14,893 nucleotides of DNA, taken from contig JABSQL010000246.1 in the NCBI GenBank assembly GCA_013215865.1, positions 1 through 14,893 of the forward strand, read 5' to 3'. Positions 1 through 12,259 of the stretch are shown here, piece after piece. The stretch is from Candidatus Margulisiibacteriota bacterium (lineage in GTDB: Bacteria > Margulisbacteria > Marinamargulisbacteria > DT-59). The translations under genes were made by a program, and so were the position numbers. Under the pieces are notes generated by a model. The model was not told where the DNA came from. It worked only from the letters and a program-made list of their open reading frames with translations, and did not search any database. Numbering within the stretch: position 1 is the first letter of the stretch; each line of letters starts with the position of its first letter.

Positions 1-837
1 AAAAATGTGGCCTCTGTAATGGTGACAGCCTCATTCCCACCATATCTTAAGAAAGGGCAAACCATCGATATTATGGTGTCTTCTCTGGGAGATGCCACAA
101 GCCTATTAGGTGGTACATTGTTATTAACAGAAGTTAAGGGGCCTGATTTTAATACATATGCTGTGGCTCAGGGGCCTGTAATCGTTGGGGGGCTTTCTGG
201 TAAATCCAATCGTAGTATGATGCTTAAAAATCAAACAACAGTTGGGCGAATTCCAGATGGGGCGATCGTTGAACGAGAGGTATCCATTACGCCTAAAGAC
301 CCTCATCATATTACAATCGTGTTGAATGAGCCCAATTTTGTGACTGCAACAAGAGCGTCTCGGGCGATTGAAGAAAAAGGGTATGTGGGGGTTAAAGCCA
401 TGGATGCCAATACCATTAAAATCCCCATAGACAAATCAAAAGAATACGATTTTGTTGAGACTGTGGCACTTTTGGAGAATATTACTTTTACGCCAGATAC
501 ATCTTCAAAAATCGTAATAAATTCTCGGACAGGCACGGTAGTTATTGGCCAAATGGTCAGATTATTTCCTGTCGCTTTAACCCACGGAAATGTGTCAATA
601 AACATAGAAGACGTACCTGAATTCGCCTATACCTTTCCAGGTGATGATCGTCATAGTAAAAAGCAAGTAAGTGTTAAAGAGTCCTCACAAAAAGTGATAC
701 ATTTATCACCGAATTCAACACTTTCAAGCCTTGTAGAGGCGTTAAATGAAATAGGGGCCACGCCCAAAGATTTGGTTTCTATCATACAAGCATTAAAGAA
801 ATCGGGTGCATTGATAGCAAGTATTGAGTTGATTTGA
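1..837 (+). CDS. flgI: Flagellar P-ring protein FlgI, 5' end cut by window
   Basis: FlgI forms the P-ring, the periplasmic bushing around the flagellar rod. The frame is open from base 1, so the N-terminus (Sec signal peptide and about 80-100 residues) lies outside the window; the GTG at base 7 is an internal Val codon, not a start. About 278 residues remain. Family hallmarks seen are the opening VMVTASFPP stretch, the GQ-IDI-VSSLGDA-SL-GGTLL block, the YAVAQGPVIVGG block, a central VVIGQMVRLFPVALTHGN strand pair and the C-terminal ending LVEALNEIGATPKDLVSIIQ followed by a helix and GALIASIELI. The gene is first of the flagellar cluster here, with the rod-binding gene starting 23 bases after its stop. 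Its presence implies an outer membrane. No frameshift or missing block is visible. Confidence 0.95.
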   Translation, partial: KNVASVMVTASFPPYLKKGQTIDIMVSSLGDATSLLGGTLLLTEVKGPDFNTYAVAQGPVIVGGLSGKSNRSMMLKNQTTVGRIPDGAIVEREVSITPKDPHHITIVLNEPNFVTATRASRAIEEKGYVGVKAMDANTIKIPIDKSKEYDFVETVALLENITFTPDTSSKIVINSRTGTVVIGQMVRLFPVALTHGNVSINIEDVPEFAYTFPGDDRHSKKQVSVKESSQKVIHLSPNSTLSSLVEALNEIGATPKDLVSIIQALKKSGALIASIELI

Positions 838-860: not shown

Positions 861-1187
861 ATGCTTGAACTAAGTAACTTATATCCAGAGTTTATAAAAT
901 ATAACCAAAGTGTCAATAATCAAAGAGCCTATCTGTCGGGCGATGCAGAGCAAGCGGCAATGATTGAGTTTGAAGCATATTTTCTTAAGAAAATATTTTT
1001 AAAGAATGTGTTTACATCTAAAGCCTTTAAACTTGAAGATGAGGATGAGAATGATAGTGTTGTCATGGATATGGAAAATCCAATTGCTGATGAAATTATA
1101 ATGGATGAAGTAGCGAGAGAACTTGCGGAGTTGAATCTATTTGGATTTAAGGAAATCATTGGATCAAGAAAAAGAAAGCAGTCTTGA
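861..1187 (+). CDS. flgJ: FlgJ-like rod-binding (rod-capping) protein
   Basis: A 108-residue protein resembling the N-terminal rod-binding domain of FlgJ, the scaffold that helps rod subunits assemble in the periplasm. What I see: an FEAYFLKKIF helix (typical FEA-FL--ML of the family) at about residues 33-42, an acidic linker, then a C-terminal ADEIIMDEVARELAELNLFG block matching the family's final helix that ends in a Gly and an aliphatic residue. There is no muramidase domain, as in many non-gammaproteobacterial single-domain versions. No signal peptide is seen. The start is supported by AAGGAG at 845-850. It follows flgI, the usual place of this gene. Its last 47 bases overlap the sigma factor frame. 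The assignment rests on short motifs and position, so it is moderate. Confidence 0.65.
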   Translation: MLELSNLYPEFIKYNQSVNNQRAYLSGDAEQAAMIEFEAYFLKKIFLKNVFTSKAFKLEDEDENDSVVMDMENPIADEIIMDEVARELAELNLFGFKEIIGSRKRKQS

Positions 1188-1920
1188 AATTGATGTTGAT
1201 GGGCTAAGGGCTCATGAACTGTCTTCTCATAAATCAAAAAAATCAATTCCTGAAAAATTTGTAAAAATGCACTTTGCCACCGTTAAAACGGTAGCATCCA
1301 AATTGGCGAGTGGCAGAAAATTACCTCCTGGCATTGTGTTTAATGACTTGGTTTCTTGGGGAGTAGAAGGCCTTATTAAGGCAAGGGAGTTATTTGACGC
1401 TAAAAAAGGGGCGAAATTCGTTACATATGCTTCCATTCGAATTAAGGGAGAAATATTGGATAAGATAAGAGAGGAATGGCAGCAAAGAAGTCCATCTAGT
1501 TACCGAAAGTACAAAGAGGAAGCAAAAGAAAGGATTGCACAATTATTAGAGGGACATGTGATCGGAGTGAATGGACCATTTGATAATACTAAGGGTGATA
1601 TTCAAGATCTTATATCAGGCTCAGCAATATCATATTCTTTATCCCTTGAAAATATTGATACGGGATTTGGTAAAGGCAAATCTAAGCCTGAGTTTGTTGA
1701 AAATATGGAGAAAGAGGAAAACAATTCAATATTATGGGAGGCCGTAGATAAAGAGTTGAATAAGCAAGAGGTAAGGTTTGTGAACTTATTTTATAGGAGA
1801 GGGATGAGTCAAAAAGCGATTGCCTCAAAGTTGAAGATGTCTCAAAGTAAAATTTCAAGAATGCATCATCAAGTTTTAAATCGGCTTAAGAACAAATTAA
1901 AGCAGGAATATGATTTTTAA
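1141..1920 (+). CDS. fliA: Sigma-28-family (FliA-like) RNA polymerase sigma factor
   Basis: A sigma-70 family factor of the FliA/WhiG group that directs RNA polymerase to late flagellar promoters in known systems. Region 2 (about residues 35-115) shows the LPPGIVFNDLVSWGVEGLIKA block followed by FVTYASIRIKGEILDKIREEW, the FliA form of the core-binding and -10-recognition helices. Region 3 (about 130-185) is weakly conserved. Region 4 (about 200-255) ends with a clear helix-turn-helix, SQKAIASKLKMSQSKISRMH. The start is uncertain: TTG at 1141 lies inside the preceding gene, and TTG at 1159, six bases after an AGGA, is an equally good choice (253 residues). Either way translation is coupled to the upstream gene. 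Finding the sigma gene between rod-scaffold and rod genes suggests that it is made together with the basal body. No anti-sigma FlgM is visible here. Confidence 0.8.
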   Translation: MDLRKSLDQEKESSLEIDVDGLRAHELSSHKSKKSIPEKFVKMHFATVKTVASKLASGRKLPPGIVFNDLVSWGVEGLIKARELFDAKKGAKFVTYASIRIKGEILDKIREEWQQRSPSSYRKYKEEAKERIAQLLEGHVIGVNGPFDNTKGDIQDLISGSAISYSLSLENIDTGFGKGKSKPEFVENMEKEENNSILWEAVDKELNKQEVRFVNLFYRRGMSQKAIASKLKMSQSKISRMHHQVLNRLKNKLKQEYDF

Positions 1921-1944
1921 TAGTGTGATATAGTAGGATCATAT

Positions 1945-2400
1945 ATGAGATTATTGATTTTTTGTTATTTTATTTTTTCTACAGCCATTTTGTATGGGGT
2001 GAATCCGTATCTAAATGAAGGTTACATCTTAGATCATAATTCTGTAAAAACAGTAAACAGACAAAGTATTGGATTGAAAAAAACATATATGACAATAGAT
2101 GAAGTGGTTATGGGACCAGCAGAAAATCGTCTTGTAACAGGTATCAATGATATGGCACACAGACAGGCCATTTATGCATATAATATTGCCAATACATCTA
2201 CACAGGGATTTGTTCCTATACGATTCAAAGATGAATATGAGGGTGTGCAAAAGTTTAAGTATCCTCTCACGGAAGTGAACATGGAGGAAGAGATGGCCAG
2301 GCTAACAAAGTCACGTTTACGGCATAGTGCCTATGTAAAATTACTATCAATGAAAATGTCTATTACAAGGAAAATAGCTGCGCTAGGAAAGGGTGGCTAG
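1945..2400 (+). CDS. flgB: FlgB-like proximal rod protein with N-terminal signal peptide
   Basis: FlgB forms the innermost part of the flagellar rod. The family D0 signature is present: an HRQAIYAYNIANTSTQGFVP stretch with NIAN at residues 80-83, and a C-terminal VNMEEEMARL block leading to a helix ending near IAALG. The oddity is the N-terminus. Residues 1-18 read as a Sec signal peptide (Arg2, then a hydrophobic run through Leu16, possible cleavage after Gly18), and NIAN lies about 48 residues later than in usual FlgB. Canonical FlgB leaves through the flagellar type III exporter and has no signal peptide. AGGA at 1935-1938 supports this start; the next in-frame ATG (residue 49) has no ribosome binding site. 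The large central part is short and the family match is moderate, strengthened by flgC starting two bases after the stop. Confidence 0.75.
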   Translation: MRLLIFCYFIFSTAILYGVNPYLNEGYILDHNSVKTVNRQSIGLKKTYMTIDEVVMGPAENRLVTGINDMAHRQAIYAYNIANTSTQGFVPIRFKDEYEGVQKFKYPLTEVNMEEEMARLTKSRLRHSAYVKLLSMKMSITRKIAALGKGG

Positions 2401-2402
2401 AC

Positions 2403-2861
2403 ATGATCATACCTAGGCTTTTGTTGCTGCTCTGTGTGGCTTCTTTGGGGGTGTTTTCTCCTAATTTGATGGCATTGGGTGTAGATGATGCAATGGAATT
2501 TAGTGCATCTGGTATCATGGTCCAGAAGATGCGACTCACGATTACAGCTGAAAATATCGCAAATATCTCTACATTTAAAACAGACAGTGGGTTGCCTTAC
2601 CGCCGCAAGTTTGCTGTAATAGTACCAGATAAGAAGGGGGTAAGACTGTCAGAAATCAGAGAAAGTTCCCAGCCTTTTGGTAAAGCGTATGATCCGCCTA
2701 ATCCACTTTCAGATAAAAGTGGATTTGTGCATGTTCCTAACGTGAGTCTGGGAGAAGAAATGGTTACCTTGGCATATACTCAGCTTCTTCATGAAGCGAA
2801 TGTGACTGCTTTTAAATCTGCAAAAGCAATGTATCAGCAGTCCTTAGAATTGCTTAAATAG
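2403..2861 (+). CDS. flgC: FlgC-like proximal rod protein with N-terminal signal peptide
   Basis: FlgC is a proximal rod subunit. The match is strong: AMEFSASGIMVQKMRLTITA leading to NIAN at residues 51-54, then SGLPYRRKFAV, KAYDPPNPLSDKSGFVHVPN, a SLGEEMVTLAYTQLLHEAN block and a final NVTAFKSAKAM helix. Residues 1-24 form a convincing signal peptide: Arg5, five leucines in a row, a hydrophobic core and a possible cleavage after Ala24 (LMA). The mature part then starts just where ordinary FlgC starts. An in-frame ATG at 2469 (Met23) would give a protein of ordinary length, but it has no ribosome binding site, whereas the start used here is preceded by a G-rich stretch (AAAGGGTGG) and sits two bases after flgB. 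A signal peptide on a rod protein is atypical, because rod subunits normally use the type III exporter. Confidence 0.9.
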   Translation: MIIPRLLLLLCVASLGVFSPNLMALGVDDAMEFSASGIMVQKMRLTITAENIANISTFKTDSGLPYRRKFAVIVPDKKGVRLSEIRESSQPFGKAYDPPNPLSDKSGFVHVPNVSLGEEMVTLAYTQLLHEANVTAFKSAKAMYQQSLELLK

Positions 2862-2933
2862 TGCTTGATTTGTTGACCAAAGACTTGTTATATTTGGGAA
2901 ATTGCGCTAAAAAGGTATGGTAAGGAGTTTTTA

Positions 2934-3251
2934 ATGGCAGACTATATATCCGCTCTATCAGCTACACAGTTAAGCCAATCGCAGGCATCTCGACTCGCAA
3001 AGCCTGTCCCCATGGCCCTGAACACGCCACCATTTCAGTTGTTAATGGATCATGCTGTATCTGCTTTTGCCAGTTTAAGTTCTATGGAAGCTGAAAATAA
3101 CCGGTTAATTAAACGATATTTACGTGGGAAAGCGACTGTAGATGAAGTGTCTGTATCAACGAGTAAATTGAATCTTGCTATGCAATTGGCAACAACTGTA
3201 CTTACGACAAGTGTTCAAACTTTTACACAACTTCAGAACACACCGTTATAA
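2934..3251 (+). CDS. fliE: FliE-like basal-body adaptor protein
   Basis: FliE joins the MS-ring to the rod and is normally the first substrate of the flagellar exporter. The 105-residue length fits the family. The C-terminal two thirds (about residues 33-103) form a helical stretch with FQLLMDHAVSAFASLSSME, NRLIKRYLRGKATVDEVSVS and a final long helix rich in Thr, Ser and Gln. This follows the family plan of F-LL--A----V---E------L--G-----EV. No signal peptide is present, unlike the two rod genes upstream. AAGGAG at 2922-2927, six bases before the ATG, is the best ribosome binding site in the cluster. The order flgB-flgC-fliE-fliF-fliG is the classical one and supports the call as much as the sequence does. 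Confidence 0.72.
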   Translation: MADYISALSATQLSQSQASRLAKPVPMALNTPPFQLLMDHAVSAFASLSSMEAENNRLIKRYLRGKATVDEVSVSTSKLNLAMQLATTVLTTSVQTFTQLQNTPL

Positions 3252-3284
3252 TAAAATGAAATTAAAAAAGGACTGATTAATCAT

Positions 3285-4946
3285 ATGGCTGAGGTAGGTG
3301 CTCCAGAACCGTTAGAAGACGAAGATATTTTGGAAGAAACATTAGATGATAATATTGAGGGGACTTCAAGAAGAAGAACGGTCATTATTGCCATTATTAT
3401 ATTGGCTGTGTTAATTATAGTCTCAGTCTTGTTTTTTTTGCGGGTTTTAGGGGATGATAATAGCGAATCAACCGTTTTAACGAACCAAGAGCAGACGGCT
3501 ACAATATCGCCAACAATCCCAAATAATAATCGAAAAAACAGAAATAAGAAAGTGAAGTATGCAAAGCTGTATCAACAGTTGGATGGTGAGCAGTTGGCAG
3601 ATGTCATTCGGGAACTTACTTTCAATGAAATTAGATATGATTTTGAACAAAGAGGCAAGTTTTTTGATTTGCTTGTGGAGAAAGATTATCTGGAAGACGC
3701 CAAAATTCTACTAGCACGGAAGGGGGTTCCAACGGGTAGTGCCAAAGGGTTTGCCATTTTTGATGAAGCGCAAACAGTGGGTGTGACAGAGTTTGATAAG
3801 CGTATACGGTTTATGAGAGCGTTATCAGGGGAGCTTGAAAATGCGCTTGTTCGTTTAGATGGCATTGTTGACAGTAAAGTTCAAATTGTAATGCCTGAGA
3901 GACGTCTTTTTTCTGTTGCTCAGCACCCTGTGACGGCATCAATACTCATTCGCAAAGCAAATGGGTATGTGATCACAGATGATCTGGTGTTTAGCATTAT
4001 AGAGTTGACATCAAGTGCTGTTGAGGGTTTATTACCTCAAAATGTGTCCGTCATCGATACACAAGGTAGAGTGTTGTCTACTGGCGTGTGGGAGCGGATG
4101 TGGGCAAAGTATAATGACAAACAAGAGTCTTCTGAATCTCAGTCTAAGCCCCAAGCCGTGCCGGCTGCAGCATTTATTGCTCCTACTGAAGAAAATGTCG
4201 TTCAGCCGACACAGAACGCCGTTAAAAATTGGGTTCAGGCCAAGCGTACAATAGAGAAAAGATTAGAGACAAAGGCGATCGGTCAATTATCTTCAATTAT
4301 TCCCAGGAATGGATTTAATTTAGCCATTAATGTTGAGCTAGTTGGACCGTCCATAGGCCAGGAATTTCGTATTAACAGAATAACCACGAGTATTGTGGCG
4401 GATCAAACAAAGATCCAACTCAATAAACTCTTGAAAAAGGAAATATTTTCCACGGTGGCAAGTGCGATTGGTTATGTAAAAGGACGAGATATTATCCAGC
4501 TCAATAAAGGCCATGTGAATCACATATCATTGGTAACACTAACCGCCAAGCCAGATTCAAATGTAGTCAGTCAGAGTGTTGTCGTAAGTGATGTAAAACC
4601 TGTGGAAGATAAACCCTCTTTTTTTGCGGGGATCGTTGGGATGTTATCTTTTCAGAAATGGATAGATATAGTAATGGATTACTGGTTTGTTACTTTCGGT
4701 ATAGGACTTTTTATTGTGGCAGGGGTTGTCTTGAAGCGGGCCCGGTCGAAACGGTCATTCCTTGAAGAGGCACAGTTATCTGATTTGCCCTCTGACACCG
4801 ATTCAAAAAAAACGGGTGATGTTCATGAAGAGCTTCTCAAAAAAGTCAACGATGTTGATGTAGAGTCTTTGGCCAAAGTTTTAGAGTCCTGGTGCCAAGT
4901 GACGGGTGAGCAGCAGGAAGAAGTGAAGGAGCAACAGTCAGCATGA
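3285..4946 (+). CDS. fliF: Flagellar MS-ring protein FliF
   Basis: FliF builds the inner-membrane MS-ring on which the basal body assembles. Seen in order: an acidic cytoplasmic N-terminus (1-28), transmembrane helix 1 (about 32-52), a linker, the first ring-building motif from about residue 91 (AKLYQQLDGEQLADVIREL and following ARKGVPTG), the second through ERRLF to VLSTGV (about 160-267), and a Gln/Ser/Pro-rich linker (about 268-316). The third ring-building motif spans about 317-420 (AKRTIEKRLE to GRDIIQLNKG), transmembrane helix 2 about 466-484, and a C-terminal tail with a VESLAKVLESWCQV helix like the FliG-binding helix. Length 553 is normal. The long beta-collar insertion that normally splits the third motif looks almost absent (NVELVGPSIGQEF runs directly into INRITTSIVAD). 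AAGGA at 3268-3272 precedes the start. The stop overlaps the next start (ATGA). Confidence 0.92.
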   Translation: MAEVGAPEPLEDEDILEETLDDNIEGTSRRRTVIIAIIILAVLIIVSVLFFLRVLGDDNSESTVLTNQEQTATISPTIPNNNRKNRNKKVKYAKLYQQLDGEQLADVIRELTFNEIRYDFEQRGKFFDLLVEKDYLEDAKILLARKGVPTGSAKGFAIFDEAQTVGVTEFDKRIRFMRALSGELENALVRLDGIVDSKVQIVMPERRLFSVAQHPVTASILIRKANGYVITDDLVFSIIELTSSAVEGLLPQNVSVIDTQGRVLSTGVWERMWAKYNDKQESSESQSKPQAVPAAAFIAPTEENVVQPTQNAVKNWVQAKRTIEKRLETKAIGQLSSIIPRNGFNLAINVELVGPSIGQEFRINRITTSIVADQTKIQLNKLLKKEIFSTVASAIGYVKGRDIIQLNKGHVNHISLVTLTAKPDSNVVSQSVVVSDVKPVEDKPSFFAGIVGMLSFQKWIDIVMDYWFVTFGIGLFIVAGVVLKRARSKRSFLEEAQLSDLPSDTDSKKTGDVHEELLKKVNDVDVESLAKVLESWCQVTGEQQEEVKEQQSA

Positions 4947-5458
4947 TAACATTTAGTGGTAAAGAAAAGGCGCTATTGTTGATGTCTCTTTTGGGGACAG
5001 ATCATCCCGTAATGGAATATGTATCTCCCGAAGTGAGAGATCTCTTATTATCTGAAATGAAACATGTTCCAAAAGCAGATCCAGAAGCGGTTAATGCGCT
5101 GCTTTCAGAAGTATTATCTTCTGCACAAAAATCTGAATCTAATTCACAAGTTGAAGAGATTGAGTTATCTGAAAAAAATGAAGATGTTGCATCTGCTCCA
5201 GAGTCAGTGTATCCTCAAGGTGGTCCTGGTACTAAAGAAATAGCAGACCGTATATGTAAGCAAAATCCTCAGGTGATTGCGTTTATTTTGGCTAAGTTAG
5301 ACGAGGATAAAAAGGCAGAGATTATGCCCTTCATTCCCGATTCTATAAAGGAAACTATAAATGAGATTGAAGTTGAAAATGTTCCCATTTCGGATAAGAT
5401 TTATAACAAAATTCATGAAATTATTTGGGGGGATGTAACAGGTGAACACAGCGAGTAA
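4943..5458 (+). CDS. fliG: Short FliG-like switch protein without the C-terminal motor domain
   Basis: FliG links the MS-ring to the rotor; its N-domain binds FliF, its middle domain binds FliM, and its C-domain generates torque with the stator. This protein has only 171 residues against the usual 330-350. Residues 1-75 resemble the start of FliG_N (LTGKEKAA-like SGKEKALLLMSLLG, then SPEVRDLLLSEM). A charged low-complexity linker follows (about 76-95). Residues 96-142 match the middle-domain core, with NPQ at 108-110 (usual EHPQ) and VIAFILAKLDEDKKAEIMPF. Nothing corresponds to FliG_C. The downstream reading frames encode the signal peptide of the next gene, so a recent frameshift does not explain the loss. 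Overlap with fliF by four bases and position directly after it support the identity. Another, complete fliG may exist elsewhere in the genome. Confidence 0.62.
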   Translation: MITFSGKEKALLLMSLLGTDHPVMEYVSPEVRDLLLSEMKHVPKADPEAVNALLSEVLSSAQKSESNSQVEEIELSEKNEDVASAPESVYPQGGPGTKEIADRICKQNPQVIAFILAKLDEDKKAEIMPFIPDSIKETINEIEVENVPISDKIYNKIHEIIWGDVTGEHSE

Positions 5459-8078
5459 TCGGTTACTGCGGTCGTTTTTTCTGGGCTCTTTATTGCTTAT
5501 ACTATTCAGTATGCCCCTTTTTTCGAGTCCTTTAGAGTTGGAGCAGATGTTTTATAGTATGTCTGTTGAAGAGCGGGCACGGGTCATGCAAAACTTGTCA
5601 CCGCAAACACAACAGAGGCTCAGGACTAATCCAAAATATACATCCTATTTGTCAGGCATTGATATGTCTCAAACGCAAAACCCTGGAAGGAAAACCGTTC
5701 CAGATATAGAGCAAGTTTTTGAAGAATCTGATTACACTCGACAAGTCAATCCCAATAAGCTTGAAGAGAGAAATAGCATATATCAAAATAGTAATGTTGA
5801 AGGTGATACCTCTGATTTGTCAGTTATTGAGCAGATGTTTGTGTCGAAGGAGTATGTGCCCACTTTTTCTGTAGATGCGACGCCCAACCCATACCCATTT
5901 GTTTTTGAGAGACACGCTTCTTCTAATATACACTCAGTAGAAGCGCAAGTGAGCGTATCCGCTGACAAGGCGCGCGCTAAACTTAATAAAGGTCATGGTT
6001 CTGCACTTTCTTCTCCCGTTAGACAATTTGGATATGATATTTTTCAGAAGAGAAGTATATTTGAACGATATAGTTTTCAAATGGAACAATCTCAGGTGGG
6101 TCCAGACTATATTTTGGGGCCCGGTGACAGCCTTCTCGTATATATTTGGGGTAAGCTGGAGCAACAGTACGATATGAAAATAGATGAGCAAGGACGGATA
6201 TTCCTTCCGAAAATTGGTCATATTAGTTTATTGGGTGTCCGATTTGGAGATGTGAAAAAAGTGCTCAATACAGAATTGAGTCAACTTTATACCAACTTCG
6301 AGATGAGTGTCATGATGAATGGTCTTAGAAGCGTATCTGTGTATGTATTAGGGGATGTGACTTATCCTGGTACGTATCAAATCCCTTCTTTTTCTTCGGT
6401 TCTTAAGGCACTGTATAAAGCCTCGGGTCCCACGAAAATTGGCTCTCTAAGAAATATTAAGCTCATTCGTAATAATAAAATTATTGCCACGATCGATTTA
6501 TATCAATATCTCATTCATGGAAATCGTCATCATGATGTAAAACTGGAGCCTAATGATACTATATTTGTACCTTCTATTGGGCCGGTTGCTCTGATTAAAG
6601 GGGGTGTGAAACGGCCTGCCATATATGAGTTAATCCCACAAAACACGGTATATGATTTAATTACTTTGGGCGGAGGGCTGTTAGCGACGTCCTATTATAA
6701 ACATATTCAAGTTGCGCAAATAGAAAATGGTGATCAACAGGTCATTAAAGACTTATCTTTCGACTCAAAGCCATCTATGGTTAAAGCCCTCAAAAAAACA
6801 AAACTAAAAAATGGTGATGCGGTCACTATACTCCCAGTATCAGAAACACTTTATAAATATGTGACCCTAGAGGGGAATGTGAAGCGCCCTGGTGTATATG
6901 CAATTGAAACAGATATGACTTTAGAGAGGCTGATTGAATATGGCTCTGGCTTTGAAGATGATACTTTTTTAGAGAAAATAGATGTCTTTCGATATATTTC
7001 TAAAGATAGACGAGAACTGATTGGATTGAATTATCATGATGAAACAACAAAGCAATTTAAATTGGCCCAATGGGATGTTGTGCGTGTATATTCTCATCAT
7101 AACATTTCAGGAGATCAGTTTGTATCTATCAGCGGGTCAATTGAGTCTCCTGGAAGGTACACATTCTTTATCGGTATGAAGGTGAAGGATTTGGTATTTC
7201 TATCAAAACCAGATTCTAGAGCAGATTTGAGCCGAGTTGAGGTGTTTAGACGGTCTTTATCTCAAGAGGGAAGGCAGCTATATCAATTAGATATAAGTAA
7301 AGATAAATCGGCATCTACACAGAACATTTTTTTGCAATACAATGATGAAGTATTTGTGAGAGCCCGTTCTAGCTTGTCTGAGACAAAACGTATCTTGTTA
7401 TCTGGGAAAATTAATTTCCCTGGTATTTACATGGCAAGAGATGGAGAATCATTAAGTTCTATCATACAAAGGGCAGGAGGACTGTCTCATAATGCTTTTT
7501 ATGAAGGAGCTGTTTTCACACGACAAGCGATATTTAAAAGAGAGAAAACAGAGAATAATAAGATTCTCCTTGAAGAGAAAAAACGTCTCTTCTATGACCA
7601 AAAAAGAGAGGGAAGCTCTGAAACCTATAAAGAAGCATTGGGCTTTCTTGAGGAAAAAATAAAATTAAGCAAAGGGAGGTTAGTGATTAATTTAGATGAA
7701 ATCGTTAATCAATCAGGGAATGAATATGACATTGCCATTCAAGATGGAGATACACTTTATGTACCAGAGATGCCATCTTCGGTGCTTATAACAGGCGGTG
7801 TTCACCATTCCACAGCTGTTCAGTATAGACCGTATAAAAATGCGTTATATTACATCAATTCTGTGGGTGGATTTACAGACTATGCAGATAAAAGAAATGT
7901 GATGGTACTGAAAGCAGATGGCTCAATTTCTAAGAAAGCAAGCGATGTTTCTTTGGGGGATACTGTGTATGTGCCAGAAGTGATTAAAACGAGATTTAAC
8001 CCCGTTGATTTTATTGTCAAGATCTCAAACAATATTGTAACCGTATTGGGTGCTGTCTTAATTATTGGTAAATTGTAG
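5442..8078 (+). CDS. Large multi-SLBB polysaccharide export protein (Wza-type)
   Basis: An 878-residue protein of the polysaccharide export (Wza/SLBB) family, which forms the periplasmic and outer-membrane conduit for exopolysaccharide or capsule. GTG start inside the fliG-like gene, preceded by a run of six G; the signal peptide (about 1-29, hydrophobic core LLLILF) begins only from this start. There is no lipobox Cys, unlike classical Wza. Residues 30-215 are a Gln/Ser-rich region with three EQ(M/V)F motifs at 34, 90 and 130 and an FGYDIF motif. The export domain starts at GPDYILGPGDSLLVYIWG (220 onward). About six SLBB-type repeats follow at roughly 296-378, 380-467, 468-552, 553-642, 643-780 (with a charged helical insertion) and 781-850. 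The end (about 855-878) is a hydrophobic helix. It is followed 11 bases later by its co-polymerase partner. No glycosyltransferase is in the window. Confidence 0.93.
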   Translation: MNTASNRLLRSFFLGSLLLILFSMPLFSSPLELEQMFYSMSVEERARVMQNLSPQTQQRLRTNPKYTSYLSGIDMSQTQNPGRKTVPDIEQVFEESDYTRQVNPNKLEERNSIYQNSNVEGDTSDLSVIEQMFVSKEYVPTFSVDATPNPYPFVFERHASSNIHSVEAQVSVSADKARAKLNKGHGSALSSPVRQFGYDIFQKRSIFERYSFQMEQSQVGPDYILGPGDSLLVYIWGKLEQQYDMKIDEQGRIFLPKIGHISLLGVRFGDVKKVLNTELSQLYTNFEMSVMMNGLRSVSVYVLGDVTYPGTYQIPSFSSVLKALYKASGPTKIGSLRNIKLIRNNKIIATIDLYQYLIHGNRHHDVKLEPNDTIFVPSIGPVALIKGGVKRPAIYELIPQNTVYDLITLGGGLLATSYYKHIQVAQIENGDQQVIKDLSFDSKPSMVKALKKTKLKNGDAVTILPVSETLYKYVTLEGNVKRPGVYAIETDMTLERLIEYGSGFEDDTFLEKIDVFRYISKDRRELIGLNYHDETTKQFKLAQWDVVRVYSHHNISGDQFVSISGSIESPGRYTFFIGMKVKDLVFLSKPDSRADLSRVEVFRRSLSQEGRQLYQLDISKDKSASTQNIFLQYNDEVFVRARSSLSETKRILLSGKINFPGIYMARDGESLSSIIQRAGGLSHNAFYEGAVFTRQAIFKREKTENNKILLEEKKRLFYDQKREGSSETYKEALGFLEEKIKLSKGRLVINLDEIVNQSGNEYDIAIQDGDTLYVPEMPSSVLITGGVHHSTAVQYRPYKNALYYINSVGGFTDYADKRNVMVLKADGSISKKASDVSLGDTVYVPEVIKTRFNPVDFIVKISNNIVTVLGAVLIIGKL

Positions 8079-8089
8079 GGATAATATTC

Positions 8090-8788
8090 ATGTCACAACT
8101 CTATGAAGAAGATGAAATTGATTTACTAGAATACGTCAGCAAAATCCTAAAGCATAAATATACGATATTGTTAGTGGTAGTTATATCAATGGTAGGGTGT
8201 GTAATCTATAATTATTTTGCACCAAGGTATTATTATGCTGAAACTACTTTCTTTCTGCCAAAGTCATCGAGTACCGCAACGAGTGGGCTTATATCCCAAT
8301 ATGCAAGAATACTTGGTTCAGGGGCACAATCTTCAGATTTTGGTGGTTACTTATCCTCACTCGTTGAAAGTAATCGGATCCAGCTGTTAGTAGCGAATGA
8401 TTTGAAGTCCAGTTTGAAGGCAGATACCTTGCCTGAAGTTTTAGGTCAATTAGAGCTTAAACGGGTGAAGCTTTCTTCTAGGGAGTCAGTGCAAGTATTA
8501 TCTTATGAGCATCAAAATCCCGAGATCGTCATGAAGGTTATTGCAAGCTATTTCCAGAACTTGGGCGTGCTTAACCAAGAGTTAGACTTGAGTGTTCAAA
8601 AGCAACTCATTACTGTTTTAGACCCTGCTACCCTGCCCATATCTCCTTCCAAACCCAACAAAAAGAAGAATTTAATGGTGACATTGTTTGGGGCCTTATT
8701 TGGCAGTATTGTGCTTATTTTATCTAAAGATTTCATTACAAATATATCGCATCAATTAAAAAAGGTTCAGTCAGACCCGATCTCATAG
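8090..8788 (+). CDS. Wzz-type chain-length determinant / polysaccharide co-polymerase
   Basis: An inner-membrane polysaccharide co-polymerase that sets chain length and contacts the export channel in known systems. Seen: an acidic N-terminus with DEIDLLEYVSKILKHKYTIL leading into transmembrane helix 1 (about 24-44), the Wzz-like YYAETTFFLPKSS strand, a periplasmic domain, and the typical LDPATLPISPSKPNKKKN proline-rich segment just before transmembrane helix 2 (about 195-212). A short cytoplasmic tail ends the protein. At 232 residues it is small; the long periplasmic coiled coil of large family members is missing, and there is no fused tyrosine kinase domain, nor a separate kinase next door. 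AGGGA at 8077-8081 overlaps the stop of the export gene and serves as ribosome binding site, so the pair is cotranscribed. Confidence 0.87.
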   Translation: MSQLYEEDEIDLLEYVSKILKHKYTILLVVVISMVGCVIYNYFAPRYYYAETTFFLPKSSSTATSGLISQYARILGSGAQSSDFGGYLSSLVESNRIQLLVANDLKSSLKADTLPEVLGQLELKRVKLSSRESVQVLSYEHQNPEIVMKVIASYFQNLGVLNQELDLSVQKQLITVLDPATLPISPSKPNKKKNLMVTLFGALFGSIVLILSKDFITNISHQLKKVQSDPIS

Positions 8789-8798
8789 CCGTTCACTT

Positions 8799-8826
8799 TT
8801 GAGATATTGTCATCATACGATATGAT
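8799..8826 (+). promoter_or_regulatory. Sigma-70-type promoter of the histidine kinase gene
   Basis: TTGAGA (8799-8804), a 16-base spacer and TATGAT (8821-8826) match the housekeeping consensus at five of six and four or five of six positions. The -10 element ends nine bases before the kinase ATG, so the mRNA would have almost no leader. No start site has been measured. Confidence 0.5.
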
Positions 8827-8827
8827 G
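8811..8827. promoter_or_regulatory. Inverted repeat overlapping the -10 element, possible operator
   Basis: CATCATA and TATGATG are perfect 7-base inverted arms separated by CGA. The right arm contains the -10 hexamer of the proposed kinase promoter. A protein bound here would block polymerase. The arms are short and AT-rich, so chance is possible, and no regulator is identified. Confidence 0.35.
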
Positions 8828-8835
8828 GTAATAGG

Positions 8836-10011
8836 ATGAAACAAACACTCTCTCATCAGATATTAGTCCCAGTTATATCATGTCTTATCTTAGGATTTGT
8901 TGTGTTTGTGATCAGCAGCTTTGTGATTGTACAAGATGCGTTTGACACACAATATAAGGTGATTCAAGAGACAGCTTCCGCTAATGGCTCATTAAAATTA
9001 GGTTCACGTTATATATCAACATTCAATGATGGTGTAGAGGCTGTAATATTGAGGCAGTTTTGGTTGGGAATTGTGCTTTTGGGTCTCACCACACTGATTG
9101 TGTATTGGGTGATTCATCGAATTTCAAAGTCTATAGGTCATTCAGTTTTTAGCACAGAAAAATCGGATCATTTTGAGCAGCTAGATAAAACGCATCGCGA
9201 TATGTATGATGCTCAAAAGCGTGAAACAATTGCTAAATTATCTGCGGGTGTGGCGCATGAAATTAATAATCCGTTGGGCTTTGTAGAGAACAATATATTT
9301 TCACTGCAGCTGTATGTGACAAAGCTGAAGGAGATATTAACACACCATGAGGAATTTTTCAGAGCTATTTGTGATGGGCCATACAACAAAGAGTTAAGCC
9401 AATTAGAAACCAAGCAAAAAGAGTTGAAAATAGATCATATATTAACAGATTTGGATGATCTGTTTTCTCAAACTTTGGAAGGCATTCGCCGTATCAATGC
9501 GATTACAAAAGCATTGTCAGATTTTTCTGGAAGAGGTATGCAAGAAAATGGAGCTTTGAATCTGAATAAAGCGATTGAGAATACATTGATTGTGAGTCGT
9601 TACGAATATCGAAATAAAATAAATGTGAAGACAAATTTTGGAGAAGTTCCAGAAATAATGTGCCATGTGGGAAAAATAAATCAAGTGCTCTTAAATTTAA
9701 TTTTGAATGCGACTCAGGCGGTTAATGGAATCGAACATACTGATAAAGGGGAAATCCATATCCGAACATTTCAAGAGGGTGTTTTTGTTTATTGTGAAAT
9801 ATCGGATAATGGTCCTGGTATAAAGAAAGAGGATATGAAGAAGGTATTTGATCCATTTTATTCTAAAAAATCAGATGGTAAAGGTATTGGGCTTGGGTTG
9901 AATATATCCTATGACATCATTAAACAGCACGGGGGGGATATAACGGTTGGTGGAGAAAAGGGGAAGGGTGCAACGTTTACGGTTAAGTTGCCGATTCACT
10001 CACTTGCTTGA
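8836..10011 (+). CDS. Membrane-bound sensor histidine kinase
   Basis: A 391-residue sensor kinase that should autophosphorylate on His and pass the phosphate to a response regulator. Two transmembrane helices (about 9-31 and 72-93) enclose a periplasmic part of only about 40 residues, with no recognisable sensor fold. The phospho-acceptor is His141 in AGVAHEINNPLGFVENN. The ATPase domain has NQVLLNLILNATQAV (N box, about 282), DNGPGI (G1, about 324), FDPFYSKK (F box) and GKGIGLGL (G2). All catalytic boxes are intact. The segment between H box and N box includes a charged insertion (about 165-205). No clear ribosome binding site precedes the ATG. The end overlaps the convergent regulator gene by 16 bases, which makes that regulator a candidate partner; the sigma-54 activator downstream is another. 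Confidence 0.95.
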   Translation: MKQTLSHQILVPVISCLILGFVVFVISSFVIVQDAFDTQYKVIQETASANGSLKLGSRYISTFNDGVEAVILRQFWLGIVLLGLTTLIVYWVIHRISKSIGHSVFSTEKSDHFEQLDKTHRDMYDAQKRETIAKLSAGVAHEINNPLGFVENNIFSLQLYVTKLKEILTHHEEFFRAICDGPYNKELSQLETKQKELKIDHILTDLDDLFSQTLEGIRRINAITKALSDFSGRGMQENGALNLNKAIENTLIVSRYEYRNKINVKTNFGEVPEIMCHVGKINQVLLNLILNATQAVNGIEHTDKGEIHIRTFQEGVFVYCEISDNGPGIKKEDMKKVFDPFYSKKSDGKGIGLGLNISYDIIKQHGGDITVGGEKGKGATFTVKLPIHSLA

Positions 10012-10376
10012 GTGCAAAGGGTCTTTTGTATGATGTCTATAAGAGAACTATATTTAGCTGTTTTAACAGCATAATCATTTGCACCTGCTCTTCTTGCATG
10101 CACCGCATTTATTTCTTCATATGAGCCAGTCATAATAATGATTTTAATGTCAAGATAAGCATCGTTTTCTCTAATGGTTTTACATAATTCAATGCCATTC
10201 ATATCCGGTAAAAGGGTATCAATAATCACCAAATCTACGGTATTCCCAGAGAGATATTTTAAAGCTCCTTTACTATTTGGACTAAAATACACATGTGTAA
10301 AATTGGATTTGTGTAGGTAATGGCGTAAAGAATACCGATCGTCCTCATCATCTTCAACCACTAATATACGTTTCAT
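9996..10376 (-). CDS. Single-domain response regulator (CheY-like receiver)
   Basis: A 126-residue stand-alone receiver domain. The acidic pocket is Asp9/Asp10 (VVEDDEDD), the phospho-acceptor is Asp53 (VIIDTLLPDMNG), the switch Thr is Thr83 (IIMTGS) and the conserved Lys is Lys105, followed by Thr where most receivers have Pro. There is no output domain, so it acts by protein contact or as a phosphate carrier. The start overlaps the stop of the upstream regulator (ATGA), showing a two-gene minus-strand operon. Its 3' end overlaps the kinase gene tail to tail. It could receive phosphate from that kinase; it is not close enough to CheY to claim motor binding. Confidence 0.95.
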   Translation of the reverse strand: MKRILVVEDDEDDRYSLRHYLHKSNFTHVYFSPNSKGALKYLSGNTVDLVIIDTLLPDMNGIELCKTIRENDAYLDIKIIIMTGSYEEINAVHARRAGANDYAVKTAKYSSLIDIIQKTLCTQASE

Positions 10377-10840
10377 TGGATGGCAGTATCATGTGAGTGC
10401 GCTAATATCATTTGCCCCCAGTAGGTATTAAAAACATTTAACTGGTCAATAAATAAAGCAAATGAAATAGGTTTTTTTAAATATCCAGAAGCACCAAGGC
10501 TATAACATTTTTTAATGTCTGCTGGCTGGGTTGATGAAGATAACATAATGCAAGGTATAAAATTAAAGTTGGGGTTTGACTTAATTTGGCTCAGCAAATC
10601 AGGTCCTTTCATGCCTGGCATGTTGATGTCCATAAGAATCAGGTCAGGCGGGGGAGAATCTGACGGGTTTTGAAATGGGGCTTGATGAGCTAAGAATTTT
10701 AGGGCATCAATACCGTTACAAACACAATAAATGGTATTTATCTGTGTGGTTTTGCTAAATGCCCGTTGGTAAATAGCAATGTCGTCCTCGTTATCTTCAA
10801 CAATTAATATGTTTAGGTTTGGAGGTGACTGCTGATCCAT
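10373..10840 (-). CDS. Single-domain response regulator, Rcp1-like
   Basis: A 155-residue receiver of the type found with phytochromes and hybrid kinases (Rcp1 family). Acidic pocket Asp16 and neighbours (IVEDNEDD), phospho-acceptor Asp71 (LILMDINMPGMKG), switch Ser at about 101 (IMLSSST) and Lys123-Pro124 (GYLKKP). A Pro-rich loop (SDSPPPD) precedes the phospho-acceptor strand. The family's C-terminal Phe/Trp helix (about FNTYWGQ) is present. There is no DNA-binding domain. It is the first gene of the two-regulator operon and is divergent from the sigma-54 activator. A -10-like TATACT with an upstream TG lies six bases before the ATG and no ribosome binding site is seen. Confidence 0.94.
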   Translation of the reverse strand: MDQQSPPNLNILIVEDNEDDIAIYQRAFSKTTQINTIYCVCNGIDALKFLAHQAPFQNPSDSPPPDLILMDINMPGMKGPDLLSQIKSNPNFNFIPCIMLSSSTQPADIKKCYSLGASGYLKKPISFALFIDQLNVFNTYWGQMILAHSHDTAIQ

Positions 10841-10846
10841 ATTTAA

Positions 10847-10855
10847 AGTATATCA
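10847..10855 (-). promoter_or_regulatory. Extended -10 promoter element for the regulator pair
   Basis: On the minus strand the sequence reads TGATATACT, an extended -10 (TGn plus TATACT), ending six bases before the ATG at 10840. The transcript would start at or next to the start codon. No good -35 is seen. Confidence 0.4.
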
Positions 10856-10900
10856 TGGGTGGTTATTGTATTAGTAATTTTGCTCATGGCTTCTGAAGTT

Positions 10901-10909
10901 TGGTATAGT
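10901..10909 (+). promoter_or_regulatory. Extended -10 promoter element for the sigma-54 activator gene
   Basis: TGGTATAGT is an extended -10 (TGn plus TATAGT) ending nine bases before the ATG at 10919. Together with the missing ribosome binding site it argues for a leaderless transcript and for 10919 over the upstream GTG as start. Confidence 0.4.
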
Positions 10910-10918
10910 TACAATAAG

Positions 10919-12259
10919 ATGCTTGAAAATTGCGTGGTCATTATAGATGATGAAGAGTCATTGGTTAAATCTATTATTCGATTGTTATCGGATGAGAACC
11001 TTATATTTGAAACCGCTTCAAACGGGAAGCAGGGCTTGAAAAAATGTATCGAACATTCACCTGAATTGGTGATTGTTGACTATCAAATGCCTGAAATGGA
11101 TGGTTTGGAATTCATAAAAGCATTGAAATCAATTCAATCGGATGTGCCTGTAATCGTCATGACTGCCCATGGTGACAGAGAAGTAGGGATACAATTTTTA
11201 AAAGAAGGGGCTTTTCGTTATTTAGAGAAGCCCTTTAAAGGAGATGAGTTTAGACTCACCGTCATTGAAGCCATTAAACAATCAAAACTCCTTAAAGAAA
11301 ATAAGACCTTGTCTACTATTATTAACTTAAAAGATGATTTTTCTGAGATTATTGGAGAAAGTTCTGCAATGAAAGAATTGTTTGATGTCATACATAAGGT
11401 GGCAGCAACAGAAGCTACTGTACTGATTCAAGGAGAAAGTGGTACTGGTAAGGAGCTGATTGCAAAAGCCATACATGAAAAAAGTGATAGATGTAGTGGA
11501 CCATTTATTCGATTTAATTGTGCAGCATTACCGGAAACGTTGATTGAGAGCGAACTGTTTGGGCATGAGAAGGGTGCTTTCACGGGTGCAGAGCAGCTCA
11601 AATTGGGGCGATTTGAACTGGCTAACGGGGGGACTATATTTGTTGATGAGATAGGAGAATTGAGTCTGAAGATGCAGGTTAAACTTCTTCGCGTATTACA
11701 AGAAAGGGAATTTGAGCGCGTGGGTGGTACGCATACTCTTTCTGCAGATATTAGGGTAATTGCGGCAACAAATAGAAACTTACAAGATATGGTCAGAGAG
11801 GGTTCTTTCAGGGAAGACCTTTTTTTCCGTTTAAATACATTTCCGATCACTATTCCTCCATTAAGAAATCGGGGAGATGATGTTCTATTATTGGCAGAAT
11901 CTTTTCTGCAACGATATTCTGTTGAGCATAAAAAGAAGGGTCTACATCTTAATGAAGGTGCGATGTCATGCTTAAAGCAGTATCAATGGACAGGAAATAT
12001 TAGAGAGCTACAAAATGTAGTGTCTCGTGCAGTGATTTTGAGTGAAAATGGTCAAGATATTAGTAAAGAGTTATTAATAATGGGGGAGCTTTCTCATTCA
12101 AGCCAGCTCTCAAACTATTTTGATCAAGAGTTAACAGAGGAAGCGCTCATGAAGGCGTATGCGCGTCATGTTCTCAAGAAATTCAACGGAGTGAAAAAAG
12201 ACACTGCCCAAGCACTCGGAATAAATTTCAGAACACTTAATAATCGGTTGGCTGACTAA
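10919..12259 (+). CDS. Sigma-54-dependent response regulator (NtrC family)
   Basis: A 446-residue activator that remodels sigma-54 RNA polymerase with ATP. The receiver (1-120) has Asp10/Asp11, phospho-acceptor Asp54 (LVIVDYQMPEMDG), a TAH switch motif and EKPF. The AAA+ domain (about 140-380) has Walker A GESGTGKE (about 171-178), GAFTGA (about 219-224), which contacts sigma-54, and Walker B GTIFVDE (about 239-245). A short Fis-type helix-turn-helix closes the protein (KKDTAQALGINFRTLNNRL). All parts are intact. The frame is open upstream to a GTG at 10859, but those 20 residues are hydrophobic, lie before the receiver and overlap the promoter, so ATG 10919 is preferred. Next to basal-body genes it could be a FlgR-like regulator, but no sigma-54 promoter was found in the window. 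It overlaps aspS by four bases, tail to tail. Confidence 0.96.
   Translation: MLENCVVIIDDEESLVKSIIRLLSDENLIFETASNGKQGLKKCIEHSPELVIVDYQMPEMDGLEFIKALKSIQSDVPVIVMTAHGDREVGIQFLKEGAFRYLEKPFKGDEFRLTVIEAIKQSKLLKENKTLSTIINLKDDFSEIIGESSAMKELFDVIHKVAATEATVLIQGESGTGKELIAKAIHEKSDRCSGPFIRFNCAALPETLIESELFGHEKGAFTGAEQLKLGRFELANGGTIFVDEIGELSLKMQVKLLRVLQEREFERVGGTHTLSADIRVIAATNRNLQDMVREGSFREDLFFRLNTFPITIPPLRNRGDDVLLLAESFLQRYSVEHKKKGLHLNEGAMSCLKQYQWTGNIRELQNVVSRAVILSENGQDISKELLIMGELSHSSQLSNYFDQELTEEALMKAYARHVLKKFNGVKKDTAQALGINFRTLNNRLAD

Follow-up and report, generated by a model that had tools for sequence, protein, structure and literature searches.

The closest described relatives of the system reported here are the flagellum, the injectisome and two structures without a filament: the basal bodies of Buchnera, which keep an export gate in one reduced symbiont lineage (PMC8109811, part of the text), and an FlhA-related 'hat-like' structure of the inner membrane, which is linked to the flagellar export core but occurs in ordinary flagellated species, is not formed by FliF and has no gene identified for it in the part of the report drawn on here (PMC9380563). 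The window analyzed here is the entire 14,893-base contig JABSQL010000246.1 of a draft Candidatus Margulisiibacteriota genome (2.2 Mb, 495 contigs, 78.5% complete) from the class Marinamargulisbacteria, hereafter the class. It carries basal-body genes that probably belong to a type III secretion system of Margulisbacteria, non-rotary, ending at the rod and made from flagellar parts, whose proximal rod seems to be delivered by Sec in the class. With the flagellum the system shares FliF, FliE, FlgB, FlgC, FlgF/G, FlgA, FlgH, FlgI, FliHIJ, FliM/N, FliOPQR, FlhAB and a FliA-like sigma factor; among these are proteins of the MS-ring, rod, P-ring and L-ring (FliF and FlgI above Pfam cut-offs in the window) and of a flagellar-type export gate. 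In the class it differs in that no flagellin, FlgD or CheW was found, FliG lacks the torque domain, FlhA forms a lineage of its own, and FlgB, FlgC and FlgF have signal-like N-termini. Unlike the Buchnera basal bodies, it is phylum-wide, and 8 of 56 genomes have it together with a true flagellum.

Those 56 genomes comprise 27 of the class, the window's own included, and 29 of other Margulisbacteria classes. FliF is found in 51 of them (24 class and 27 other), the FliMN_C domain also in 51 (22 and 29), FliI above its cut-off in 50 (24 and 26) and FlhA in 49 (22 and 27). No class genome gave a match to flagellin (Flagellin_N, 0/27 against 8/29 elsewhere, with control matches in E. coli, B. subtilis, Caulobacter and Thermotoga), to the hook cap FlgD (0/27 and 7/29) or to CheW (0/27 and 10/29); the hook protein FlgE was examined only through Flg_bbr_C, among the matches listed. 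The gene set common in the class consists of a FliK-like gene, a gene resembling the FlhB C-terminus, two or three FlgF/FlgG-like genes, FlgA, FlgH, FlgI, a short gene at the FlgJ place, a sigma factor, FlgB, FlgC, FliE, FliF and a short FliG, and the order FlgF/G-FlgA-FlgH-FlgI-FlgJ-sigma-FlgB-FlgC-FliE-FliF-FliG is that of flagella. Pfam finds the FlgH and FlgA domains in a class relative. The window's own genome holds FlhA, FlhB, FliR, FliQ, FliP, FliO and FliN on one further contig (C246 in our numbering), apart from the window contig, and FliH, FliI and FliJ on another (C292), and these contigs led us to reject the idea, raised by the signal peptides, that there is no export gate at all. 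Among the 21 genomes of other classes that lack flagellin, 19 have FliF and 19 FlhA, none has MotB_plug, and one has FliG_C (G039, a partial model match). One of the 21, G032, is a single contig with FliF, FlhA, FliI and two FliMN_C matches and with no match to flagellin, FlgD, MotB, FliG_C or CheW, so draft gaps do not explain the absences in that genome.

In flagella, FliG_N binds FliF, FliG_M binds FliM, and FliG_C meets the stator. In the window FliG, Pfam recognizes FliG_N and then 41 positions of FliG_M, the domain in which the protein ends; the class FliG profile, matched to full-length solved FliG chains, covers them over about residues 3-160 only. Because the FliG_N and FliG_M part is kept and FliG_C is gone, the short FliG could still join the two rings and should not take torque; from its sequence we infer a ring adaptor without a torque role. 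In the window's own genome (78% complete), no FliG_C match and no MotB match were found. Counts of short motifs make a weak test: GGxG-like motifs occur in 8 of 13 FliM and EHPQ-like motifs in 23 of 29 FliG, and a CheY-binding-like motif in none of the 13 FliM. A C-terminal W motif occurs in 28 of 41 FliF, a count that tests nothing since the pattern also misses both true flagellar FliF.

The eight genomes with flagellin (G028, G031, G034, G037, G040, G043, G046 and G049) have two FliF matches each, and they encode a full-length FliG of 337-343 aa together with a second locus that has a protein of 174-202 aa at the FliG place; in seven of the eight the identification of this protein rests on position and visual inspection, the window FliG giving no match. 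The FlhA proteins divide into two groups. A first tree held 33 system rows and 6 flagellar rows, and a tree with outside references grouped 15 system rows at 100/100, five flagellar rows of the phylum at 100/100 and five SctV rows at 100/100. We use the grouping alone and not branch length, the FlhA branch being 3.62 changes per column under a mixture model with a short search and 0.48 under LG+G4 with other rows. Since eight genomes hold both systems and FlhA forms two lineages, the system is not merely a decayed flagellum.

The N-termini of the rod proteins were judged by three sequence-based rules: a loose one built on site heuristics, a stricter one, and plain hydropathy read in gene order. 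By hydropathy, the class proteins are signal-like in 18 of 19 FlgB, 19 of 20 FlgC and 16 of 18 first FlgF/G copies, and in none of 22 FliE and none of 22 later FlgF/G copies; FlgA (17/18), FlgH (17/19) and FlgI (17/20) were the positive controls. The loose rule gave 19 of 19 FlgB and 17 of 20 FlgC and is too loose, since it also takes 15 of 40 FlgF/G and 14 of 24 FliF. Outside the class, hydropathy marks 1 of 16 FlgB and 7 of 14 FlgC, those seven all lying in system loci of flagellin genomes. In an alignment (A4), canonical FlgC proteins start where the class FlgC extension ends. Of 5,395 FlgC matches, the best 120 include 73 signal-like proteins, 72 of them among the first 78 and one among the last 42; those of the 73 that bear a name are from Margulisbacteria bar one labeled as a Thermoproteota archaeon. 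Two signal-like FlgC proteins, P0041 and P0127, do not fit the rest: one bears that archaeal label, perhaps from a mis-sorted bin, and one lies among signal-less matches. FlgB, FlgC and FlgF of the class thus seem to carry Sec-type signal-like starts, and FliE and FlgG seem not to. By group, such starts are seen in no rod protein in some classes, in FlgC only in others, in FlgC and FlgF in G031, and in all three proteins in Marinamargulisbacteria.

A machine of the following kind would fit these parts. FliF and the FlhA/FlhB/FliPQR gate would form its base in the inner membrane, with FliHIJ feeding the gate; the short FliG would bridge FliF to FliM and FliN, with no torque domain; and FlgH and FlgI would line the passage across the outer envelope. 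Sec would, in the class, take FlgB, FlgC and FlgF to the periplasm, where they would build onto FliE; seated on the gate, FliE would itself be exported through it, as would FlgG-type subunits and cargo. Because no hook cap or flagellin was found, the channel is expected to end at the rod or at a short FlgG-like tip, and once finished it may secrete proteins or build a short FlgG-like appendage. A further FlgG-like gene on another contig of the window's genome (C179) adjoins one small gene and several large ones that belong to no known family, and this group is a candidate for the tip and cargo of the secretion system.

Several observations weigh against this interpretation. The system's FlhA, FlhB, FliP, FliR and FliI pass curated flagellar cut-offs, and the placement of its FlhA rows outside all flagellar rows is supported only at 82/72. 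Our searches would overlook hook and filament proteins that have diverged beyond the reach of the Pfam models. Under the stricter signal rule FlgB keeps 18 of 19 but FlgC only 12 of 20, with some false hits among FliG and FliF; a codon-position test of six gene pairs was mixed, third positions changing most in five of them, in two narrowly, with the FlgB of g15 as the exception; and the window contig does not extend to FlgF. The mixed codon-position result, with the internal ATGs in the window FlgB (codon 50, a possible rival start) and FlgC (codon 23), would suit the view that the extra N-terminal residues of FlgB, FlgC and FlgF stay uncleaved as membrane anchors or come from wrongly called starts, and that no rod subunit passes through Sec. 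We think this unlikely, since the pattern follows the gene and not the genome (present in FlgB, FlgC and the first FlgF/G copy, absent from FliE and later copies), and in G031 and G028 the system FlgC has a signal-like extension that the flagellar FlgC lacks.

The flagellar scores of the gate proteins and the flagellar gene order could also mean a decayed or divergent flagellum, a relic that has lost or changed its filament, hook and torque parts or an ordinary flagellum whose outer parts go unrecognized, and Buchnera offers a precedent for filament-less basal bodies (PMC8109811, part of the text). We regard this as distinctly unlikely: the system is conserved across the phylum with a distinct FlhA lineage, all eight flagellin genomes carry it beside a flagellum, and a single-contig genome has it with no match to flagellin, FlgD, MotB, FliG_C or CheW. 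The gate is nevertheless flagellar in kind, because it passes the flagellar cut-offs and not those of injectisomes. The SctV-type and SctU-type scores fall short (hrcV 664.9 against a cut-off of 692.25 and FlhB_rel_III 334 against 358), as do those for SctT and SctN (fliR_like_III 127.5 against 163.05 and III_secr_ATP 600.3 against 604.75). Injectisomes have in common with the Margulisbacteria system a flagellum-related export gate and, if our reading of its role holds, secretion; here, though, FlhA, FlhB, FliP, FliR and FliI stay below the SctV, SctU, SctR, SctT and SctN cut-offs and the P- and L-rings are retained, and we rejected an injectisome on these cut-offs and on the FlhA/SctV tree, no search aimed at an outer-membrane secretin having been made.

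Torque might still reach the secretion system of the class from elsewhere. FliG_C occurs in 31 of the 56 genomes (22 class and 9 other) and MotB_plug in 29 (21 and 8), and in the 11 class loci fetched the FliG_C and MotB_plug genes form a separate locus, with the FliG_C-bearing gene directly beside MotA and MotB in eight of them (L114, L115, L116, L117, L118, L121, L131 and L132; L119 is also a locus of this type). The structure would be rotary after all if this locus, with its FliG_C protein, MotA and MotB, drove it, and the frequency of FliG_C (22/27) and MotB_plug (21/27) in the class speaks for that. We find it very unlikely, since the FliG_C proteins bring a signal-like start and a membrane stretch of their own or follow a FliF_C-type partner (YscJ_FliF_C above cut-off in L116, L117, L119 and L121), since the window's own genome has no match to either domain, and since MotB is found in 0 of 21 and FliG_C in 1 of 21 flagellin-less genomes of other classes. 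The separate class locus resembles a rotor-stator pair with no export gate. It is conceivable, though we hold this with less than even confidence, that the Margulisbacteria have divided the flagellum between two machines, an export half and, in the class, a torque half that lacks the gate. On that proposal the export half would have kept the YscJ-like part of FliF and only the adaptor part of FliG as a non-rotary, rod-ended machine with its proximal rod exported by Sec, and the torque half would be made of a FliF_C-type membrane ring, a FliG with its C-domain, MotA and MotB.

The initial annotation joined the altered basal body to the polysaccharide genes downstream in a hybrid envelope machine that might be non-rotary, and flagged the two together as the best candidate for an undescribed system. 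The altered basal body proves to be class-wide and apparently undescribed, and a non-rotary structure is probably right given a FliG without its torque domain and flagellin in 0 of 27 class genomes; the partnership with a polysaccharide channel found no support. Gene maps were drawn for 40 fliF loci from 38 relatives. The class accounts for 24 loci counting the window, and 22 of these have a visible gene after fliG, the contigs of G001 and G009 ending at fliF. An SLBB gene directly follows fliG in two of the 22, the window and G017 (34 bases after), so that the survey proposed at the outset found the adjacency in one relative besides this genome, close to the single-genome outcome named there as refuting the hybrid. 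In G014, SLBB and Wzz genes lie on the same contig about 5.6 kb off, with six genes between, sugar-nucleotide-like ones among them; in G003, of the same family as G017, the gene after fliG is one of those six and not SLBB; and in the remaining class loci unrelated or opposite-strand genes follow. A protein search found SLBB relatives in 17 of the 27 class genomes. Three of these (G000, G014 and G017) have the relative on the fliF contig and 13 have it on another contig; G018 has an SLBB relative and no fliF match. A tree built from six joined proteins unites G014, G017 and G003 at 100/100 and places the window elsewhere, with 87/92 on the parting branch. Because adjacency is seen in 2 of 22 loci, the SLBB gene lies on another contig in 13 of 17 genomes and the tree separates the two adjacent cases, the link between fliG and SLBB is local and labile. 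Downstream of fliG in G014, G017 and G003 (L036, L042 and L046) there are genes that by eye are sugar-nucleotide-like, which implies that in that family group this place often takes polysaccharide genes. The window's 5442-8788 stretch belongs to Wza/Wzz polysaccharide export by its Poly_export/SLBB and Wzz proteins, and the pair is probably a separate exporter of the ordinary kind, a neighbor of the machine and not a conserved component of it. That basal body and SLBB-Wzz channel act as one envelope machine, an idea favored by the window's 17-base overlap, the 34-base gap in G017 and the polysaccharide genes near fliG in G014 and G003, can hardly be credited in view of the gene maps, the SLBB search and the tree, and we rejected it.

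Within the window the features are those collected in the table.

Features of the window, with the evidence on which each is named
Feature	Position	Strand	Evidence
FlgI, P-ring	1..837	+	Pfam FlgI 291 bits; 5' end off the contig
FlgJ-like rod-cap candidate, 108 aa	861..1187	+	named by position after FlgI and by its cluster in relatives
FliA/WhiG-type sigma factor	1141..1920	+	Sigma70_r2 and r4; first start TTG at 1141, true start may be later
FlgB-like proximal rod protein, extended N-terminus	1945..2400	+	Flg_bb_rod and FlgB matches below cut-off, from residues 64-68; alignment A5
Signal-peptide-like FlgB start	1945..1998	+	hydropathy and site heuristics; cleavage point uncertain
FlgC-like proximal rod protein	2403..2861	+	TIGR01395 100.0 bits against cut-off 102.1, from residue 30
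Signal-peptide-like FlgC start	2403..2474	+	alignment A4 (canonical FlgC begins at its end); heuristics
FliE-like protein, without signal peptide	2934..3251	+	Pfam FliE 17.9 bits against cut-off 22.4; FliE cluster in relatives
FliF, MS-ring protein	3285..4946	+	YscJ_FliF 145.9 bits; fliF 128.6 against cut-off 129.75
Short FliG, 171 aa	4943..5458	+	FliG_N and first part of FliG_M (2-42 of 76); no FliG_C
SLBB/Poly_export outer-membrane polysaccharide exporter	5442..8078	+	Pfam Poly_export and SLBB; Wza-type solved chains; start GTG
Wzz-type chain-length protein	8090..8788	+	Pfam Wzz 42.3 bits

Pfam bears out the domain assignments first made for fliF, fliG, SLBB and Wzz, and the impression that FlgB, FlgC, FliF and FliG are altered was sound: FlgB and FlgC fall below curated cut-offs, as does FliE, and are extended at their N-termini, and FliF lies 1 bit below the fliF cut-off. 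The FlgC-like protein is also matched by solved FlgC chains. The 861..1187 protein gave no match in Pfam and NCBIfam searches, and the sigma factor scores 109.6 bits with FliA_WhiG, under its cut-off. The coordinates agree with the overlaps and spacing originally claimed: fliF and fliG overlap by 4 bases, the SLBB start at 5442 lies 17 bases within fliG with GGGGGGAT directly upstream of its GTG, and 11 bases separate the SLBB stop from the Wzz start. Cotranscription of fliG and SLBB in this genome is plausible from the 17-base overlap. The statement that no terminator or promoter is visible between them is fair and weak: a scan of 1900-9000 found 4 terminator-like sites against an expected 3.7 and 24 promoter-like sites against an expected 21.4, the sole plus-strand terminator-like site inside 4943-8788 lies within the SLBB gene (7404-7420), and a sigma-70 promoter scan says little because the cluster has its own FliA/WhiG-like sigma gene. 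After Wzz, at 8836-12259, there follows an ordinary set of a histidine kinase, two response regulators and an NtrC-type regulator.

Other loci hold further genes. A stand-alone FlhB C-terminal domain protein (L036:17616-17999, Bac_export_2 positions 262-335) lies beside a FliK-like gene. Between FliP and FliQ, L072 encodes a protein of 336 aa (3214-4221) whose start is signal-like and which Pfam does not match; it has relatives in 6 of the 20 export-gate loci fetched. The export-gate operon includes ParA/MinD-like and radical-SAM-like genes, named by eye (L072:5709-6446 and L073:2143-3459). An extra FlgG-like gene occurs with a small gene, resembling an export chaperone by eye, and large genes without Pfam matches at L128:4635-7320 and L129:6853-9824, again candidates for tip and cargo.

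Margulisbacteria are listed among the rare phyla with flagellins (PMC7018530) and among phyla with FlgV (PMC11607428) in the parts of those papers drawn on here, and the string 'flagell' is absent from the main text of PMC6349859 and PMC6784892, as far as the consulted portions of these go. The open-access literature searched yielded no description of the system or of Sec signals on FlgB, FlgC or FlgF, which leaves absence from print unproven; a phylum-wide secretion system derived from the flagellum is apparently undescribed. That a phylum has retained such an export system with no filament, hook cap, chemotaxis or torque domain, in eight genomes alongside flagella, makes it a natural test case for the origin of secretion machines from flagella. 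If rod proteins do carry Sec-type signals, the rule that the export gate alone serves to build the rod would no longer hold, and the change would be seen to proceed stepwise across classes. If the flagellum has indeed been split in two, type III secretion would gain in the export half a third line, next to flagella and injectisomes, and the torque half would be a rotary motor without a flagellum.

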